Source: Cucumis sativus
Taxonomy: Eukaryota; Streptophyta; Magnoliopsida; Cucurbitales; Cucurbitaceae
Length of the DNA stretch: 64,000 nt
Assembly: GCF_000004075.3 (NCBI RefSeq)
Contig: NC_026660.2
Coordinates: forward strand, 12,400,001-12,464,000
Direction: 5' to 3'
The notes under the pieces were generated by a model, which worked only from the letters and a program-made list of their open reading frames with translations, made no database searches and was not told the origin of the DNA. Of this stretch, positions 26,211-61,357 are shown in pieces. The position numbers and the translations under genes were made by a program. The stretch's first letter is position 1. Every line of letters starts with the position of its first letter.

Positions 26211-26442
26211 TATAAATTGAAAAAGTATTAAAAAATCATAAACAAAATATCACCAATTACATACAAAATTGATGATATAAGAAATTAGCATAATTTGAAA
26301 AAAGTATTAAAAAAACATAAACAAAATATCACTAATTACATGCAAAATTGATGATATAAGAAATTAGCATAAATTGAAAAAGTATTAAAAAAACATAAAC
26401 AAAATATCACTAATTACACACAAATTAATGATATAAGAAATT
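26211..26442. repeat. three tandem copies of a ~79-bp unit
   Basis: Successive units share AAAGTATTAAAAAA, CATAAACAAAATATCAC and GATGATATAAGAAATTAGCA. The GTATTA anchor falls at 26225, 26304 and 26382 (79 and 78 apart). Copies are over 90 percent alike by eye. Confidence 0.85.
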
Positions 26443-41444: not shown

Positions 41445-44400
41445 ATGGCTGCCACGGTTTCAACCATTGGAGCTGTTAATAGAACAACGGTACTGTTTCT
41501 TCCTGCCTAATCTTTTGGGTAATTTGATGGAGAATACCAATATATTAAAATAATTTCATCTTTTCTATCTGGGTTTCATCATTCAATCTTGAAAGGTCAT
41601 TTTATTTACAGCTTTAGGTGTAGCAAAGAATGGGGAATTTCATCTGTAATGTAATGACTTGTATAAGCTTGAAAATAAGAGAGCCTGACGATTCTAAAAT
41701 TAACACTATGCAGCTAAACAACAGTAACTATGGAGGTTTAGTTCCAAACTCTGCGTTTTTGGGCAGCAGGTTAAAGGTCAGTTCTAGATTCACCACCTCA
41801 AAAATGGTGACTGGAAACTTCAAGATTGTTGCTGAGCAGGATGAGGAGAAGCAGACCGAGAAGGACAAATGGCGTGGCCTTGCTTTCGATACTTCTGATG
41901 ACCAACAAGACATTACCAGAGGGAAGGGTTTGGCGGATCCTCTTTTCCAAGCTCCCATGGGGACAGGAACTCACAATGCTGTATTGAGTTCATATGAATA
42001 CATTAGTGCTGGACTTCGAGAGTAAGTTTTAATATGGAACTCTGCAGTAGGTTTGAACATTTTTATGCTAGTGTACTTAAAGTGTGACAATGTTTCAGTT
42101 ACAGCTACGACAATAATGTGGATGGGTTTTACATAGCTCCAGCTTTCATGGACAAACTTACGGTTCACATTGTTAAGAACTTCTTGACCCTCCCGAACAT
42201 TAAGGTTAAAAATATGACGCGACAATTTGACAATAAGTTCTTGTTTGTCTTTCAGTGCTAACTTGCCAACCTTCTTGGATGCATTTATTTTAGGTTCCTC
42301 TCATTCTGGGTGTTTGGGGAGGTAAAGGTCAAGGAAAGTCTTTCCAGTGTGAACTTGTATTTGCTAAGATGGGAATCAAGTAAGTTAAAAACCATCTAGT
42401 TCTGAGGAAGTTGTTTGGAGGGTTTAAGTTCATCATACAGGCTTCTACGTCTCCCTGATATATTGTTGGTCTTAATTTTTTTAGTTATGATGAATTTTCA
42501 GCCCTATTATGATGAGTGCTGGGGAATTAGAAAGTGGGAATGCAGGAGAGCCAGCAAAATTGATCAGGCAAAGATACAGAGAGGCAGCTGATATCATCAA
42601 GAAAGGGAAAATGTGTTGTCTATTTATCAACGATCTTGATGCTGGAGCTGGAAGGCTTGGTGGGACTACCCAGTACACAGTGAATAACCAGATGGTAAAT
42701 GCTACTCTTATGAACATTGCTGACAACCCAACCAATGTGCAGCTACCAGGCATGTATAACAAGGAAGAAAATCCCAGAGTTCCCATCATAGTAACTGGTA
42801 ACGACTTCTCAACGTTATATGCACCTCTCATTCGTGATGGTCGGATGGATAAATTCTACTGGGCTCCAACTCGTGAAGATCGTATTGGTATTTGCACTGG
42901 AATATTTAGGACTGATGGCGTGCCTTTCGAGGATATTGTCAAACTTGTCGACACCTTCCCAGGACAGTCAATAGGTAAGTTGTATAATTTCTGTATAGGG
43001 ATGTTCCAGTTGAGCTAATTAATTGTAAATGATCATCTCTTACAGACGTTTAGCATCTCTTATTATAAGTTATATAACTGTTTTGCAGACTTCTTTGGTG
43101 CTTTGAGAGCTCGAGTTTATGACGATGAAGTGAGAAAGTGGGCTGTAGGCGTTGGCGTTGAGCGCATTGGAAGAAATCTTGTTAACTCCAAGGAAAGTCC
43201 CCCAACTTTTGACCAACCGAAGATGACAATAGAAAAGCTTCTTGAATATGGCAACATGCTCGTCATGGAACAGGAGAATGTGAAGAGAGTTAAATTGGCT
43301 GACAAGTATCTGAACGAAGCTGCTCTTGGAGATGCAAACGAGGATGATGTTCAGTTTAAGACTTCTCAGGGTAAACAACTTTTACGTTCAAAGTCGTTTC
43401 TCCATAATTTGTTTTTTATAAAATTAATCTGTATTGATTGTTTTGTTTTTCTTTTACAATTTTAAAGAAGCTGCCCTCGATGTTGCAAATGAAGATGTTG
43501 TTCAGTCAGAAACTTCTGAAGGTAAGTAACTTTTAAATCCAAAGTTGTGTGTGGATCATTTGGTTTATGAAATTTAATCTAAACTTATCATTCTCTTTTC
43601 ACTTTAAAGAAGTTGCTCTTGAAGATGCAAATGAGGATGTTGAGTCAGGAAGTTCGAACGGTAGTTAACTTTCACATTCAAATTCATGTCTTGATTATTT
43701 GTGTTCTTAAATTTAATCTCTTTTTTTTTTCCAATGCTAAAGAAACAGCTCTTGAAAACGCCATCGAAGAAACAGTTGAGGCTCTTATCGATACAAATGA
43801 GGATGTCGTTCAGTTAGAAACTTCTCATGGTAGGCAGCTTCTACATTTAAAATCATGTCTTGATCATTTGTTTTCTAAAATTTAGTTTACACTAATAATT
43901 CTTCCTTGCAATCTTAGAAGTCCCACTTGGAATTGCAAATGAGGATGCTGTTCAGTCAAAAACTTCTTATGGTAATTAACATTTACATCTAAAGTTGCTC
44001 CTTGATCATTTACATTAAGAAATTTGATCTAAGACAATAATTCATTTTTCAATTTTAAAGAAGTTGCTGTCGAAGATGCAACTGAGGATGTTGTTCAGTC
44101 GGAAATTTCTGGTAGGCAAATTTTACATTTGAAGACTATTTGTTATATGCAAGTCAAACCATTAATGGTCAGTTTTATAAAATTTAGAAGAACCGGCTCT
44201 TATGGGTGCAAATGAGGATGTCGTTCAGTCAGGAAGTTCTGGTAAGCAACTCTTACGTTCAAAGTAGTCTTTGATAATTTGTTTTTATTTTTTAAATAAA
44301 GCCTAATTAGGTTTTCTTTTTTTCATTTTTAAAGAAGCTGCTACTGTAGATGCAAATGAGGATGTTGTTGTACAGTCGGGAACTTCTTATGGTAGGGAAA

Positions 44401-44606
44401 GTTTTCAATTCTAGTCTGTCTATCATTTGTTTTTGGGATTTAATTCACATTAATCGTTCATTTTTTGCAATTTTAAAGAATCAATGGGGGAAGAGGAACG
44501 CAACAAGTTAATATCATTGTTCCTGAAGGCTGTGCAGATTCATCTACTAAAAACTATGTCCCAACAGCCAGATTCGACGACAAAAGCTTCCAGCATTGAC
44601 TCTTAG
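41445..44606 (+). CDS. RCA: Rubisco activase with amplified C-terminal mini-exons
   Basis: Fourteen exons: 41445-41489, 41714-42021, 42099-42204, 42294-42379, 42502-42974, 43089-43370, 43468-43521, 43610-43660, 43743-43829, 43918-43971, 44061-44111, 44188-44241, 44335-44391, 44479-44606. As read this is 611 aa (typical activase 430-475). It starts [15 protein letters not shown] with a transit peptide. The conserved N-domain ([20 protein letters not shown]), Walker A GGKGQGKS (about 162-169), Walker B CLFINDLD (about 221-228) and C-domain [17 protein letters not shown] are intact. This stromal AAA+ ATPase removes inhibitory sugar phosphates from Rubisco. Exons 7-13 repeat the C-terminal [11 protein letters not shown] segment. 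The last exon, as read, encodes an unrelated frame; one extra G at 44486-44490 would give [13 protein letters not shown], a relic of the alpha tail that lacks the second Cys. Confidence 0.93.
43371..44478 (+). repeat. tandem exon-intron array, ~144-bp units, in Rubisco activase
   Basis: Exon starts at 43468, 43610, 43743, 43918, 44061, 44188, 44335 and 44479 give spacings of 142, 133, 175, 143, 127, 147 and 144. Introns are also related: donors are followed by forms of 'AACTTTTACATTCAAAGT' and 'GATCATTTGTTTT', and acceptors are mostly 'AATTTTAAAG'. Exon lengths are 54, 51, 87, 54, 51, 54 and 57, all divisible by three and all phase 1-1. Confidence 0.93.
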
Positions 44607-45576
44607 GAATTTTCTACAGCTTTGCCTCCAGTAATGTAAATTGTTACTGTAATAAAACTTCATTAAAAGCTTAGTATCATTAAACGATAAACAAAATTGC
44701 TAGTCATTAACAATACCCAATGTATTTCCAATCAGTAACTTTTACAAACAGATTTCTAGCATTTACATCTAAACTGAATGAAGGAAGACCAAACTTAATC
44801 TTCCAGTGCAGGCAATTTCAGCTGTGTAACTTCCTGCATTTCTTGTTCAGCAATACTAATCTGGAGGAAGGAACAATTTTCTCTGGGAATTTTCAACAAG
44901 CTTCAGCTCCAAATGTTCCTTTCTCAGTTTGAGGAAATTCGAAGGGTGCTCTTTGAGGGCTATGCTCTTTTCAGTCATGACAGACATAAATACATCGCTG
45001 GTTCTCCCTCTAAATTACAAGCAATGAAGCAACTACGTATATTGATTGGTGTGGCACCTCTGTCATCGATGCATAATCTCCTAATCACTAATTTATCTAT
45101 ATCCTTGGAGAGGAAATTTTGAAATTTTGGTTCAATTATTTGTCTTCTCCTACTGATTTGTTTGGTCTTACCCAATTTCAAATCCCCCTTCTCACGCCCC
45201 ATAACTTAAGAGTTTCTCCTGCAATAGCATAGCCTCATTTACTCGGTCCAAATGATGTACATAGAGCATCAAATTTGTGGTAAAGAGACCCAGATATGCA
45301 GTTGATCTACCACAAATAAGTTAGTTTTGAATAAATACAGAGCTAGGAATCATGTATTTGTCAAATTCTTCACCAGAAAAGGGACAAACCCAAGGATCAC
45401 AAAGTAAGTATCAACCACAGGTATCGAATGAACCTCGTCCCAGAGAATAAACCCAAAGGATAATTATAAAATGATCTTTGAGGAAGTTTAGCTATGAACC
45501 CCATTAAAAGTGTTTATCTGTCAACCATTTGCCTTGTAGGATCATAATTTATCCTGAAAATTCCCCTTTAATGAAG
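44607..45576. other. convergent spacer between activase and PPR gene
   Basis: Activase 3'UTR on the left and PPR 3'UTR on the right. No further gene is supported. Confidence 0.5.
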
Positions 45577-47426
45577 TCACATCCAGCTGAAACCAGGTTC
45601 TTTCTTGACTCCTCTGTTGGACATTAGCCTCCTTATGCTAGCAGCATCATCCCAATAACCATCTCTCCCCAGCGCATTCGACAACATGATGTAAGTTGCT
45701 GGATCATATGGATATAGTTCCAAAAGCTTTTTCGCAGTACGAATGGCAATATCTTTATTTCCATGGATTAGGCAAGCACTCAACAAAGCTTTGTAAATTG
45801 AAATCCCTGGTTCTATCGGGATGCTTTCAATGAAAGCTTCAGCTTCATAAAGCTTTCCTGCTCGACCGAAAAGGTCAACCAAGGTAGCATAATGCTCCAG
45901 CTTTGGAGGTTCGACCAATTCACTATTTCTCATCAACTTGAAATATTCAAGTCCCTTGTCCAGCAAGCCAACATGACTACAAGCAGTGAGAACAGCAAGG
46001 AATGAGGTATTATCTGGTTTGATACACGTTCTTCTCATTTTCTCAAATAAGTCTATAGCCTCTTCACCACATCCATGGTAAGCACATCCTGAAAGCAATG
46101 AATTCCAGGATATTAAGTCGTGTTCATTCATCATCGAGAAGACCATTTTTGAATCCCTGATAGCACCAGATCTAGCATACATAGACACAAGACCATTTTG
46201 GACAGATAAATTTAGAGTATATCCAGTTTTATAAACTAGACCATGAATTTGCTTTCCTTCTTCTAGAGCTGAAGTCATACCTATAGCCTTAAAAATGCTT
46301 GTAAATGTGAAGAAGTCCACATCAAATTTTTCCCTCCTCATTTGAATGAAACATTCCAAAGCTTCCTCACCAATTCCCAAGTTCGTAAAACCAGCTATGA
46401 CTGCATTCCACGAAATCTGGTCTGACATTCTAATGTTTGAGCAAACCTTCCTATAGTCTTCCAAGCTACCGCAACATTCTGAATATGCAGTAACAAGTGT
46501 AACAGCTATATAGTTATTACTCTCGTACCCTTCCGTTATTATGCGACAATGGATTTGCTTACATTTATCAAAATGACGAGGACATGAAAATGAACTTAGC
46601 AAGCTATTATAAGTCATACCATTTGGTTTAAGATTCAAATGCAGCATTTCTCTCATCAAAATCATTGCCTCATGAGGCAACTGATTCCGAGCATAACCAG
46701 AGATCATCGAAGTCCAAGTAAACACATTCTTGTTCAGCATTATATCGAACACTCTCCTCGAATCCTGAAGGTTGCAACACTTAGAGTACATATCAATTAA
46801 TCCTGTACCCACAACAACATTAGACGAAAACCTTAGTTTCAAACTCATAGCATGAAGTTGACTTCCAAGATCTCCCTTTTGTAACTGAGAACAGCCCACA
46901 AGACCACCAGATAAACTGAAGGGGTGGGTTCAATCCCTTTCTTTAGCATCTCTAAAAACAAAGAAACTGCCATCAAAGGGTAGCCAGCTTGCAAATAACC
47001 AGTAACCAAAGAATTCCAAGTGACCACACTTGGACAACTCATTTCATCAAACACCTTGTGGGCATCCGAGATAGACCAACATTTACCATACATATCAACA
47101 AGAGCAGTAAAAATATAAGGATTGAGAGAGAAACCCAGCTTGATAATGGTTGAATGGACTTGAATTCCAAAGTCCAGAAGGGTGGATTTTGTGCAGATGG
47201 ATATGGTTTTAGTGAGAATGGGAGGAGTAGGGGGAGACCCATGTCGCAGTAATTGAACAAGAAATTGGATGTCAACAACATTGTGTGTTTGAAGGAGGGG
47301 TTTGATGGAAACATCTTCAGAGTGAGTGTAATGACAAGAAATTAAAGGTCTGTGGTTAGAATTTAATATGGAAGAGGGCTTGAGAAGATGAACAGCGCTG
47401 TGAAAAGGACGAATGAAACAGTACAT
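45577..47426 (-). CDS. pentatricopeptide repeat protein (PLS, E-type), one frameshift
   Basis: An intronless gene on the minus strand, 616 aa if one base is allowed for. The N-terminus MYCFIRPFHSAVHLLK looks like an organellar targeting peptide. Repeated PLS-type PPR units follow, e.g. ALVDMYGKCWSISDAHKVFD, VVTWNSLVTGYLQAG, GLIDMYSKCCNLQDSRRVFD, DQISWNAVIAGFTNLG. The end is an E-type region (HYATLVDLFGRAGKLYEAEA, then KKEPGFSWM). The two frames overlap at 46845-46899. One T too few at 46919-46920 (coding strand TT) interrupts the run from EPTP into GCSQLQKGD. Likely role: site-specific RNA editing or processing in an organelle. The target cannot be told from sequence here. Confidence 0.88.
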
Positions 47427-58220: not shown

Positions 58221-59866
58221 ATGCTCTCTCTTACCGGCGGCGCTGTATTTCTTCGAGCTCCAAACAGATTTCCGGCCATCCTTCGTGGGTTTTGTTCCTC
58301 GTCCGATGGATATATTGAACTCATCGAGACGTGTGGACGCAATCGAGATTTGAACTTCGGGAGGTCACTTCATGCTCGATTGATCATCGATGGATCAGCC
58401 CGTTTGACACATTTTGCTGCGAAGTTCATAGCCTTCTACGCCGCATGTGGCAAAATCAAGGATGCACGGATATTGTTCGACAAAATTCCCCGAACAAATC
58501 CTCGCCGGTGGATTGTTTTGATTGGGGCTTATTCTCGTTGTGGGTATTACCCAGAAGCTTTGAGTGTATTTTGTGAGCTGCAGAGAGGAGGATTAAGACC
58601 TAGCGAGTACATCATTCCCAGTGTCTTGAAAGCTTGTGGTCATCTCTCCGAGAAAACTACTGGGAGAAAACTCCATACCTTAATCCTCAAAAACTCCCTT
58701 GAATCTGATGCTTATGTCTGCAGTGCGTTGATAGATATGTATGCGAAAAGTGGAGAGGTTGAGAAAGCTCGGCGAGTGTTTGAATCAATGGCTGGGAAGG
58801 ATTTGGTGGCATTGAATGCGATGGTTTCAGGGTATGCCCACCATGGATTAGCTGAGGAAGCTTTGAATCTGGTGGAGGAGATGCAAGTATTGGGTATAAA
58901 ACCCAACCTGGTGACTTGGAACACTTTGGTTACAGGTTTTTCTCAGATTGGTGAGGAAGAAAATGGTTCGTGAGCTTTTCAAAGAGATGGAAGCCAATGG
59001 GATAGAACCAGATGTAGTATCTTGGACATCTGTGATATCTGGGTTTGTACAAAACTTTAGAAATGAGGAGGCTTTTGATACATTTAGAAGGATGTTGAAT
59101 GCTGGGTTTCATCCAACTTCTGCTACAATCAGTAGTCTCTTGCCTGCTTGTGCATCGGTTGGAAACGGGCGATGCGGGAAGGAAATCCATGGACATTCTC
59201 TGGCTCTTGGAGTTGAAAAAGGATGTGTATGTGAGGACTGCATTGGTTGATATGTATGCAAAATGTGGATATTTTTATGAAGCAAAGATATTATTTTGGA
59301 GGATGTCTGAAAGGAATTCAGCTACTTGGAACTCCATGATTTTTGGGTATGCAAATCATGGATATTGCAATGAAGCAATAGAGCTTTTCCATCAAATGAA
59401 GGACGATGATGAGAAGAAACTTGATCATCTAACATTTACAGCAATTCTTACTGCTTGTGCTCATGCTGGGCTGGTTGATTTGGGAAGAAGTTTGTTCCAG
59501 TTGATGCAAAGTAAATATGGTATTGTTCCTAGAGTCGAGCATTATGCCTGTATGGTTGACGTGTTCGGTCGAGCAGGGAAGTTGGCCGAGGCTTATGATT
59601 TGATCAAGACAATGCCAGTCAAGCCTGATTTATACGTATGGGGAGCTTTGTTAGGTGCTTGTAGGAAGCATGGAGAAATAGAACTAGCTGAGGAAGCAGC
59701 CAAACATTTATCAGAATTGGAACCTGGAAGTGTTGGGAACAGTTTGTTATTGTCTGATATATATGCTAATGCAGGGAGTTGGGGACATGTTGTGAAGCTG
59801 AAGAAGATGATGAAGAAGAGAAAGATGAAGAAATTTCCTGGGTGCAGTTGGATAGAGACAGCTTAG
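58221..59866 (+). CDS. pentatricopeptide repeat protein, two frameshifts
   Basis: An intronless gene, 547 aa after allowing two extra bases (1646 nt becomes 1644). It starts MLSLTGGAVFLRAPNRFPAI, a likely organellar targeting peptide. PPR units include LIETCGRNRDLNFGRSLHAR, FIAFYAACGKIKDARILFDK, NLVTWNTLVTGFSQIG, DVVSWTSVISGFVQN and ALVDMYAKCGYFYEAKILF. The end is an E-type region closing with CSWIETA. The frame breaks in A-runs at 58960-58963 (IGEEE into MVRELFKEM) and 59216-59220 (LGVE into KDVYVRTALVDM). It is close to the Arabidopsis At5g59600-type PPR protein (from memory), which in Arabidopsis also neighbours a DnaJ gene. Likely an organellar RNA-processing factor. Confidence 0.88.
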
Positions 59867-60236: not shown

Positions 60237-61130
60237 CTATAAATCATGCTGCCCTTTCGTGCTACACGAATGAGTAGGTACATTGGTTAGGTTAACCATT
60301 GGCATGGCGGTTTGACTAAGACCATGGCCGTGAGCTCCCATACCATAAAACATCATAGGCATCATCGGAGATGGCATATAAGTCACTGGAAAAGTAGCCG
60401 GAAAATAGTCGTTTCCGTGTGAATCGGCGGCACCGGGAGAAGAATCGTGAGCATTCTGCGTTACGGGCATCGGAACAAGAGCTTCATCAGTTGTTGAAGA
60501 AATCTGCGTCCTCTTCAAGTAAAGTCGATACTTCTGAAGATGACTAGCAACATTTTCACGAGTCAATCCCTCCACATTCATCATTTGCATAATAGCTTTG
60601 GGAGCTGCGTCTTTAAGCCCTAGGTGAGAAACCACATCCACGAACCGTTTGTGTAATTGTGGAGTCCACGCGAGCCTAGGTCGCTTCAAGGTTCGAGCCA
60701 ATGCTGCATCCTCAATCAAACTCTCCGCTCGAGGTGCTAAATTCGTCTCCTCAACACAATCAACCCTCCTCAATTTCCGCGAATCAGATCCCAAATCATC
60801 TGGATTTATCCCCTCGTCTGATTCAACCATCACAACGTCTTCCCTCCGCGTCTGATCGTACTTAAACTCAAAACTCCTGTATCCTTCTGACTGTCCATCA
60901 CGAATATTCAATATCGTCATCTTCGATGCCGAATTAACATCTAATATACTCCGATGAGGTTCCATCAAAATCCTAAACGCGGAAGCGAGTTCCTGCGATA
61001 TTAACGATTGAGAAAGAGGGGTTAATTTCTCAACATCCGGCAGCCCATCCTCCCATAGAAGAACTCTTTCATCCTCATTTCTACAACCATTACCACCGCC
61101 GAATTGGAATTCCCTCTTCTTCTTCTCCAT
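60237..61130 (-). CDS. LUX: LUX ARRHYTHMO/BOA-like GARP transcription factor
   Basis: Single exon, 297 aa, from ATG at 61130 ([12 protein letters not shown]) to TGA. The open frame extends upstream but without ATG. The N-terminal [20 protein letters not shown] and [12 protein letters not shown] blocks match LUX/PCL-type proteins. The GARP/MYB-like DNA-binding domain lies at about 149-208 ([39 protein letters not shown]). LUX joins ELF3 and ELF4 in the evening complex that represses clock genes at dusk. Here [20 protein letters not shown] differs from HLGIKNAVPKTIMQLMNVEG of LUX. A paralogous PCL-like/MYBC1-type assignment is therefore possible. Being intronless and having an Evening Element upstream supports LUX/BOA. 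Confidence 0.8.
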
Positions 61131-61357
61131 AAGAAATTGATTCTTGTTCTTCGATTCCTCAACCAAATCGAGTGTTATTAGAGTAGCTTATTGGAATCTT
61201 GGATTCAAAAAGTAAGGTTGGTTCGATCCGTGGTAAGATTTTTCGTTTCGAAGAATGTGTTTGGAAGATCAGAGAAAACGGGAACAATGTCTCATAGGAA
61301 GGAGAAGGTTGGGAATCGGGAATCGGGACTAGGGACTCGGATAGTGGCAATTCGGCA

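Follow-up and report, generated by a model that had tools for sequence, protein, structure and literature searches.

The window, by which we mean the whole stretch of 64,000 nucleotides of Cucumis sativus DNA that was analysed (C6, positions 12400001-12464000), carries an intact Rubisco activase gene on the plus strand, with its ATG at 41445 (Table 1). The spliced model is open for 611 codons and has GT-AG ends at all 13 introns. Pfam analysis found RuBisCO_activase_AAA_helical (PF21228, E 2.4e-39) and AAA (PF00004, E 2.9e-17) in the protein, both above cut-off, and phmmer matched both 4w5w and 3t15 across the activase core, with an E value of 4e-219 for the Arabidopsis protein 4w5w. The motifs that we take to be Walker A, Walker B and the N-domain Trp (KDKWRG) were intact in the translation, as in L006, which is one of two activase paralogues described below. 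When the AAA+ core was compared with that of L006, dN was 0.076, dS was 2.30 and dN/dS was 0.033, a ratio that is only rough because synonymous sites are near saturation. This means that the core is strongly constrained, and that the gene is old and alive rather than a dying copy.

Table 1 Coordinates of the activase gene, its array of mini-exons and its alternative last exon (positions in the window)
Feature	Position	Strand	Remarks
Exons 1-6, activase	41445-41489, 41714-42021, 42099-42204, 42294-42379, 42502-42974, 43089-43370	+	Open splice model
Content of exons 1-6: transit peptide (assigned by position), N-domain, AAA+ core	41445-43370	+	
Parent copy of the repeated coding unit, end of exon 6	43317-43370	+	Similarity to the other units begins at GAA 43317
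Intron behind exon 6 (97 nt), from which the array introns derive	43371-43467	+	Retention would add 31 residues, then a stop
Array exon 7, 54 nt, 18 residues	43468-43521	+	
Array exon 8, 51 nt, 17 residues	43610-43660	+	
Array exon 9, 87 nt, 29 residues	43743-43829	+	
Array exon 10, 54 nt, 18 residues	43918-43971	+	
Array exon 11, 51 nt, 17 residues	44061-44111	+	
Array exon 12, 54 nt, 18 residues	44188-44241	+	
Array exon 13, 57 nt, 19 residues	44335-44391	+	
Last exon, first acceptor	44479-44606	+	42 residues, stop TAG; 611-residue model
Last exon, second acceptor, 17 nt downstream	44496-44599	+	Alpha-type extension, 34 residues, stop TGA; 603-residue model
Five-G run, upstream of acceptor 44496	44486-44490	+	Five in both assembled copies

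Seven mini-exons follow exon 6 in tandem, and together they make up 408 nt, or 136 codons (54, 51, 87, 54, 51, 54 and 57 nt). The first-pass annotation, whose span (43371-44478) starts with the intron behind exon 6 and closes at the last exon's first acceptor, had claimed these lengths, with phase 1-1, GT-AG ends and an open frame throughout, and all of this was found when it was checked on the splice model. It had also taken the array to be the segment that follows the AAA+ core, amplified in tandem, and this reading stood: the duplicated unit consists of the end of exon 6 and the intron behind exon 6, and the eight units (exon plus intron) were 64-75% identical pairwise, which indicated that they are true repeats. 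Exon 9 looks like two fused units, to judge from its letters. The further claim that the exons are symmetric, so that any subset stays in frame, was borne out by enumeration, since the frame was open through the last exon for 128 of the 128 subsets of the seven array exons. The introns of the array region (76-97 nt, 75% AT) have lengths in all three classes modulo 3, and the array exon lengths are all multiples of three.

Searches covered the whole genome assembly (226.6 Mb, 88 contigs). Among the best candidates scored, the array DNA occurred only at the window locus and in a copy of it on C7, and there was one extra DNA match of 40 bases, on C7 at 17.23 Mb, to part of the intron after exon 12. 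The array protein gave 12 matches in the genome, again all at the window locus and the C7 copy, among the best candidates scored. The array pattern had 0 matches in the bacterial, archaeal and viral collections (genome_contigs and viral_contigs), and the core protein had no confirmed relative in viral_contigs; given what these collections contain, the two results do not bear on other cucurbits. A description of such an array was not found in the open-access literature that was searched, a body of text that leaves most subscription papers outside it.

The last exon could be entered at two acceptors, and the length of the five-G run sets which frame the first acceptor opens. With six G, the first acceptor would lead into the alpha tail; both assembled copies have five, although elsewhere they differ by one-base indels, which lie mostly in homopolymer runs. 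The tail read from the first acceptor (ESMGEEERN...) is the other frame of the alpha-type extension, and by eye it had no likeness to known activase tails. A genome search with the tail of L006 found the second-acceptor frame at 48% identity (E 0.00145). Over 30 codons, dN/dS between this frame and L006 was 0.30, and the changes at codon positions 1, 2 and 3 numbered 10, 8 and 13, which is only a slight excess. The C-terminal extension of alpha isoforms behind the ALGDAN segment is hence present in the predicted frame from the acceptor at 44496. In known alpha isoforms, this extension is a redox switch, which blocks the nucleotide site when its cysteines pair. The two cysteines form a bond that is controlled by thioredoxin-f and inhibits the enzyme (PMC5385338, PMC4436894, in the portions of text available). 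The window gene keeps the first regulatory cysteine (PEGC) and has Phe in place of the second (KSF), so the known alpha redox switch cannot form in the window activase, which lacks the pair of regulatory cysteines of alpha isoforms. Three features had gone unnoticed in the first-pass annotation, namely the C7 copy, the second acceptor and an alpha-type tail in which one redox cysteine is gone. Another likeness to the alpha extension was seen on C7 (L025, 20460974-20461054, minus strand), where the end of an open frame, GCTDPSSHLFNPLANVDDGSC, resembles it with an E value of 0.0137; this may be either a common motif or chance.

A search with a stretch of 54 residues from exon 6 led to two other activase loci. 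L006 (C6, 0.855 Mb) has an alpha-type tail with both cysteines, and L007 (C5, 4.99 Mb) is of the beta type and ends soon after the segment. Exons 2-6 of the window gene are homologous to those of both paralogues, with 70-90% DNA identity over the aligned parts, but both paralogues have a single segment and no array. The statement that activase otherwise has this segment once was thereby confirmed for both of the paralogues that this search brought up. Compared with plant alpha activase (green-type Rca, AAA+), the window gene has the same core, the ALGDANED segment and an alpha-type extension that is readable behind the array, but it repeats the segment seven more times before the extension begins, has one of the two regulatory cysteines, and needs the second acceptor for the alpha frame. 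Judged by the open-access literature searched, the array amplification is new in the C-terminal architecture of activase.

The C7 copy (5597251-5666720) is an inverted copy of the locus, which begins at a 500-N gap and is 99.84% identical over 69.5 kb. Compared with positions 1-63506 of the window, it had 43 differences, namely 42 one-base indels, 39 of which fall in homopolymer runs, plus a single substitution. At a typical substitution rate, one such change between copies corresponds to about a thousand years. Both assembled copies are identical letter for letter from 42483 to 45501, although they may rest on the same reads. We do not believe that the C7 copy is a true second gene, because 42 of the 43 differences are one-base indels and the 500-N gap adjoins. 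It is probably one locus assembled twice, so that activase genes may be overcounted by one in this assembly, though it may instead be a real, very young duplication.

Published primers connect the window gene with earlier expression work. A leaf-RNA qPCR primer pair for cucumber Rca is given under Csa6G188680.2 in PMC9853560, the same pair is used in PMC11723107, and a pair for CsRCA (FJ980456) is given in PMC8264795 (available portions of the three papers). The Csa6G188680.2 pair matched the window exactly at 43244/43308 and the FJ980456 pair at 43135/43213, while none of the four primers matched the fetched stretches of L006 or L007. The two forward primers had whole-genome matches only at the window locus and the C7 copy. 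With four of four primers exact here and none in the paralogues, the window gene is cucumber's, and it is the Rca gene measured in those papers, as far as their available text goes; the isoform followed in such studies may be an unusual one. Each primer pair is confined to exon 6 and is uninformative on the array.

The borders of the repeat suggest how the array may have arisen. In exon 6 the parent copy opens with GAA, which marks the start of the repeat, and the final copy stops at the tttaaa that precedes the GAA at 44478. The letters GAA are thus common to the two outer junctions, which read ttttaaaGAA where the final array intron finishes and GAAGCT in exon 6. We infer from these letters a repeated tandem duplication of one cassette, comprising the last 54 nt of exon 6 and the phase-1 intron behind it, in which the duplicate would be joined at the common GAA and would obtain a ready acceptor (AG/AA), an unchanged phase and a complete Glu codon. 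Because GAA is common to the intron end and exon 6, each new copy would at once be a frame-neutral mini-exon. The 64-75% identity of the units and the supports in the unit tree, which range from 0.07 to 0.91, indicated old copies that arose at roughly similar times. Between units, corrected divergence averaged 0.42 at synonymous sites and 0.48 in introns, which would put the age of the array at 30-48 My at typical substitution rates. The arrangement resembles tandem exon duplication in that adjacent copies of exon plus intron are homologous in both parts and phase-symmetric, but here the unit takes in no more than the final part of its parent exon. Human tandem exon duplications are described as mutually exclusive (PMC9741552, available portion), whereas the seven copies here can all be joined in frame. 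For gene evolution, this would mean that, given a phase-1 intron and a common GAA, duplications can repeatedly yield exons that are in frame from the start.

To see how the array has been maintained, exon and intron parts of the units were compared. With splice-site columns excluded, p-distance was 0.239 among exons and 0.354 among introns, and the drift of the introns claimed at first reading was thus seen. The comparison of dN/dS with intron divergence, which had been proposed beforehand, gave exons below introns and a pooled dN/dS of 0.61 over units (pN/pS bootstrap interval 0.41-1.06). Nine of the 18 residue columns have at most one deviant among units; the conserved core of the unit is A-N-E-D-V-V-Q, and the invariant columns are E, D, V and S. 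These values were set against neutral star simulations (2000 per setting), for which figures are given in pairs, with intron base frequencies before uniform ones. At an intron-like rate, no stop in eight units was obtained in 1.15%/7.65% of simulations, a pN/pS as low as observed in 0.10%/8.45%, and at least nine conserved residue columns in 0/2 of 2000. At the lower, exon-matched rate, the same three outcomes were reached in 4.25%/16.55%, 1.85%/20.25% and 2.4%/15.6%, and at a higher rate in 0.5%/5.45%, 0.15%/5.85% and 0/0 of 2000. Across rates, uniform base frequencies let 5.85-20.25% of simulations reach the observed pN/pS. The probability that all 32 GT/AG bases stay intact was 1.2e-3 at the intron rate and 1.3e-2 at the exon rate. 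In the control frames, the second forward frame was open in five of the seven array exons and the third in none, which means that the openness of such short exons is by itself weak evidence. Taken together, these results suggest that selection has preserved both the splicing capacity of the array and its open frame. Selection on the array residues appears weak, and the modest evidence that they matter depends on the model.

Splice sites and intron lengths bear on which transcripts the array could give. An AAAG acceptor is weaker than a YAG acceptor, and six of the eight array-region acceptors end in AAAG, while the five core acceptors are YAG. Short AT-rich introns are recognized by intron definition, of which the usual failure is retention, not skipping. 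The introns of the array region are short and AT-rich enough to suggest intron definition, and this counts against a ladder of tail lengths made by exon skipping, as the first-pass annotation had imagined it. If one of the eight array-region introns is retained, a stop is met inside it in seven cases. Activase alpha and beta forms arise by several kinds of alternative splicing (PMC10952736, available portion), and unspliced array introns could likewise give shorter, beta-like forms.

The array would add a strongly acidic stretch to the protein, as had been claimed with an estimate of about 136 residues. Among the 137 residues counted (the 136 codons of the array plus the junction Glu), there were 39 D/E, 24 S/T and 1 K, with no R, W or C, and seven S/T-x-x-D/E sites. 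The net charge of each of the seven units is negative, from -2 to -9, and the charge-hydropathy rule classes the tail as disordered (H 0.453, with the boundary at 0.513). Pfam gave nothing meaningful on the tail (best E 0.053, below cut-off). The computed full-array product has 66.9 kDa and a pI of 4.49, and joining exon 6 directly to the last exon would give products of 475 or 467 residues, of which the alpha-frame form (51.67 kDa, pI 5.69) is unremarkable among activase precursors. In cucumber leaves, a study by 2-DE, whose table holds differential spots only, lists four activase spots among 77, under two accessions with 51.77/5.58 and 48.29/8.19 (PMC6165847, available portion). Both entries fit the computed mass and pI of the paralogues (L006 51.80/5.59, L007 48.32/8.19), each with an offset of 0.03 kDa in mass, and no activase spot in that table fits the full-array product. 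The entry at 51.77/5.58 was also considered as the array-skipped product, but L006 fits it better. In the available portion of PMC7147439, one activase is named, which is the 48.29 kDa form, and the available text of a western blot paper (PMC8695794) does not contain "kDa". In the available text of these three papers, then, no product of the window gene was seen, either with the array or lacking it.

We hold with moderate confidence that this is a live third activase gene of cucumber, of which the C-terminal end was lengthened by cassette duplication, and that the array is present in mRNA and alters the tail. The mature mRNA would most likely carry most or all of the array. In the protein, a flexible acidic stretch would link the AAA+ C-domain of the activase to an alpha-type extension that has degenerated. 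The gene, the array, its frame and the constraint on the core are seen directly in the data, and the mRNA, the protein and its role are deduced from them. With one cysteine gone, the array would act on a tail that lacks redox control, perhaps as a spacer or as an electrostatic modulator. The roles named in the first-pass annotation, namely an adjustable acidic linker, a phosphorylation platform or a contact with Rubisco or the hexamer, are candidates only.

A less likely but still serious alternative is that the array is spliced in and translated but inert, as a tolerated insert in a disordered tail that stays open only because a stop would truncate the protein. Such an insert would by itself produce a frame signal, and the weak residue constraint (dN/dS 0.61, with a pN/pS interval that extends to 1.06) and the drift of unit length from 51 to 87 nt are consistent with it. 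Against it, every unit has remained net negative, and half of the residue columns have at most one deviant, a degree of conservation that is nearly absent from simulations at the intron rate but is less exceptional at the exon-matched rate. It is rather improbable that the array is mostly bypassed, either by joining exon 6 to the last exon or by a stop in a retained intron, so that an activase of ordinary size is made. The AAAG acceptors, the ordinary mass and pI of the skipped alpha-frame product, and the ordinary size of the leaf activase forms in the available reports would agree with this. However, exons that are always skipped should decay like introns, yet these exons diverge less, and the reported spots fit L006 and L007 better.

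Two further explanations deserve very little credit. If the repeats bound Rubisco as the stickers of EPYC1, an algal linker, do, the protein would be a multivalent Rubisco scaffold, and the window tail does resemble EPYC1-type linkers in being repetitive, predicted to be disordered and tied to a protein that acts on Rubisco. EPYC1-type linkers have a repeated binding motif of Trp plus basic residues, whereas the window tail is strongly acidic, has no Trp, no Arg and one Lys in its 137 residues, and gave 0 matches to that motif; we therefore regard a scaffold as very unlikely. That the array is an assembly artefact and absent from the plant is scarcely credible. The near-identical 69.5 kb copy by the 500-N gap and the one-base differences between copies raise this suspicion, but the units differ by 25-36%, which is far beyond read error, and the array is identical in both assembled copies, though perhaps from the same reads.

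Returning to the reading of a live gene with an array that alters the tail, a wider version of it is speculative and improbable: in cucumber, and probably in related cucurbits as well, to judge from how old the array is, the alpha redox switch would have been lost and replaced by an exon-amplified acidic tail, the length of which is set by splicing, so that one gene would give activases graded in ADP or heat sensitivity. Efforts to make photosynthesis tolerate heat target activase, which is known to be regulated through its alpha tail. The region before this tail has here been copied seven times, which makes the gene a natural experiment on tail length and charge, and the loss of the known redox pair sharpens the question of the regulatory role of the tail.

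Elsewhere in the window, PPR-repeat genes lie at 45577-47426 (minus strand) and 58221-59866 (plus strand), each as two open frames with an E motif at the end. An open frame with a Myb-like DNA-binding domain was found at 60237-61166 (minus strand), and a tandem repeat of 79 bases, in three copies with 92% matches, occupies 26212-26442.
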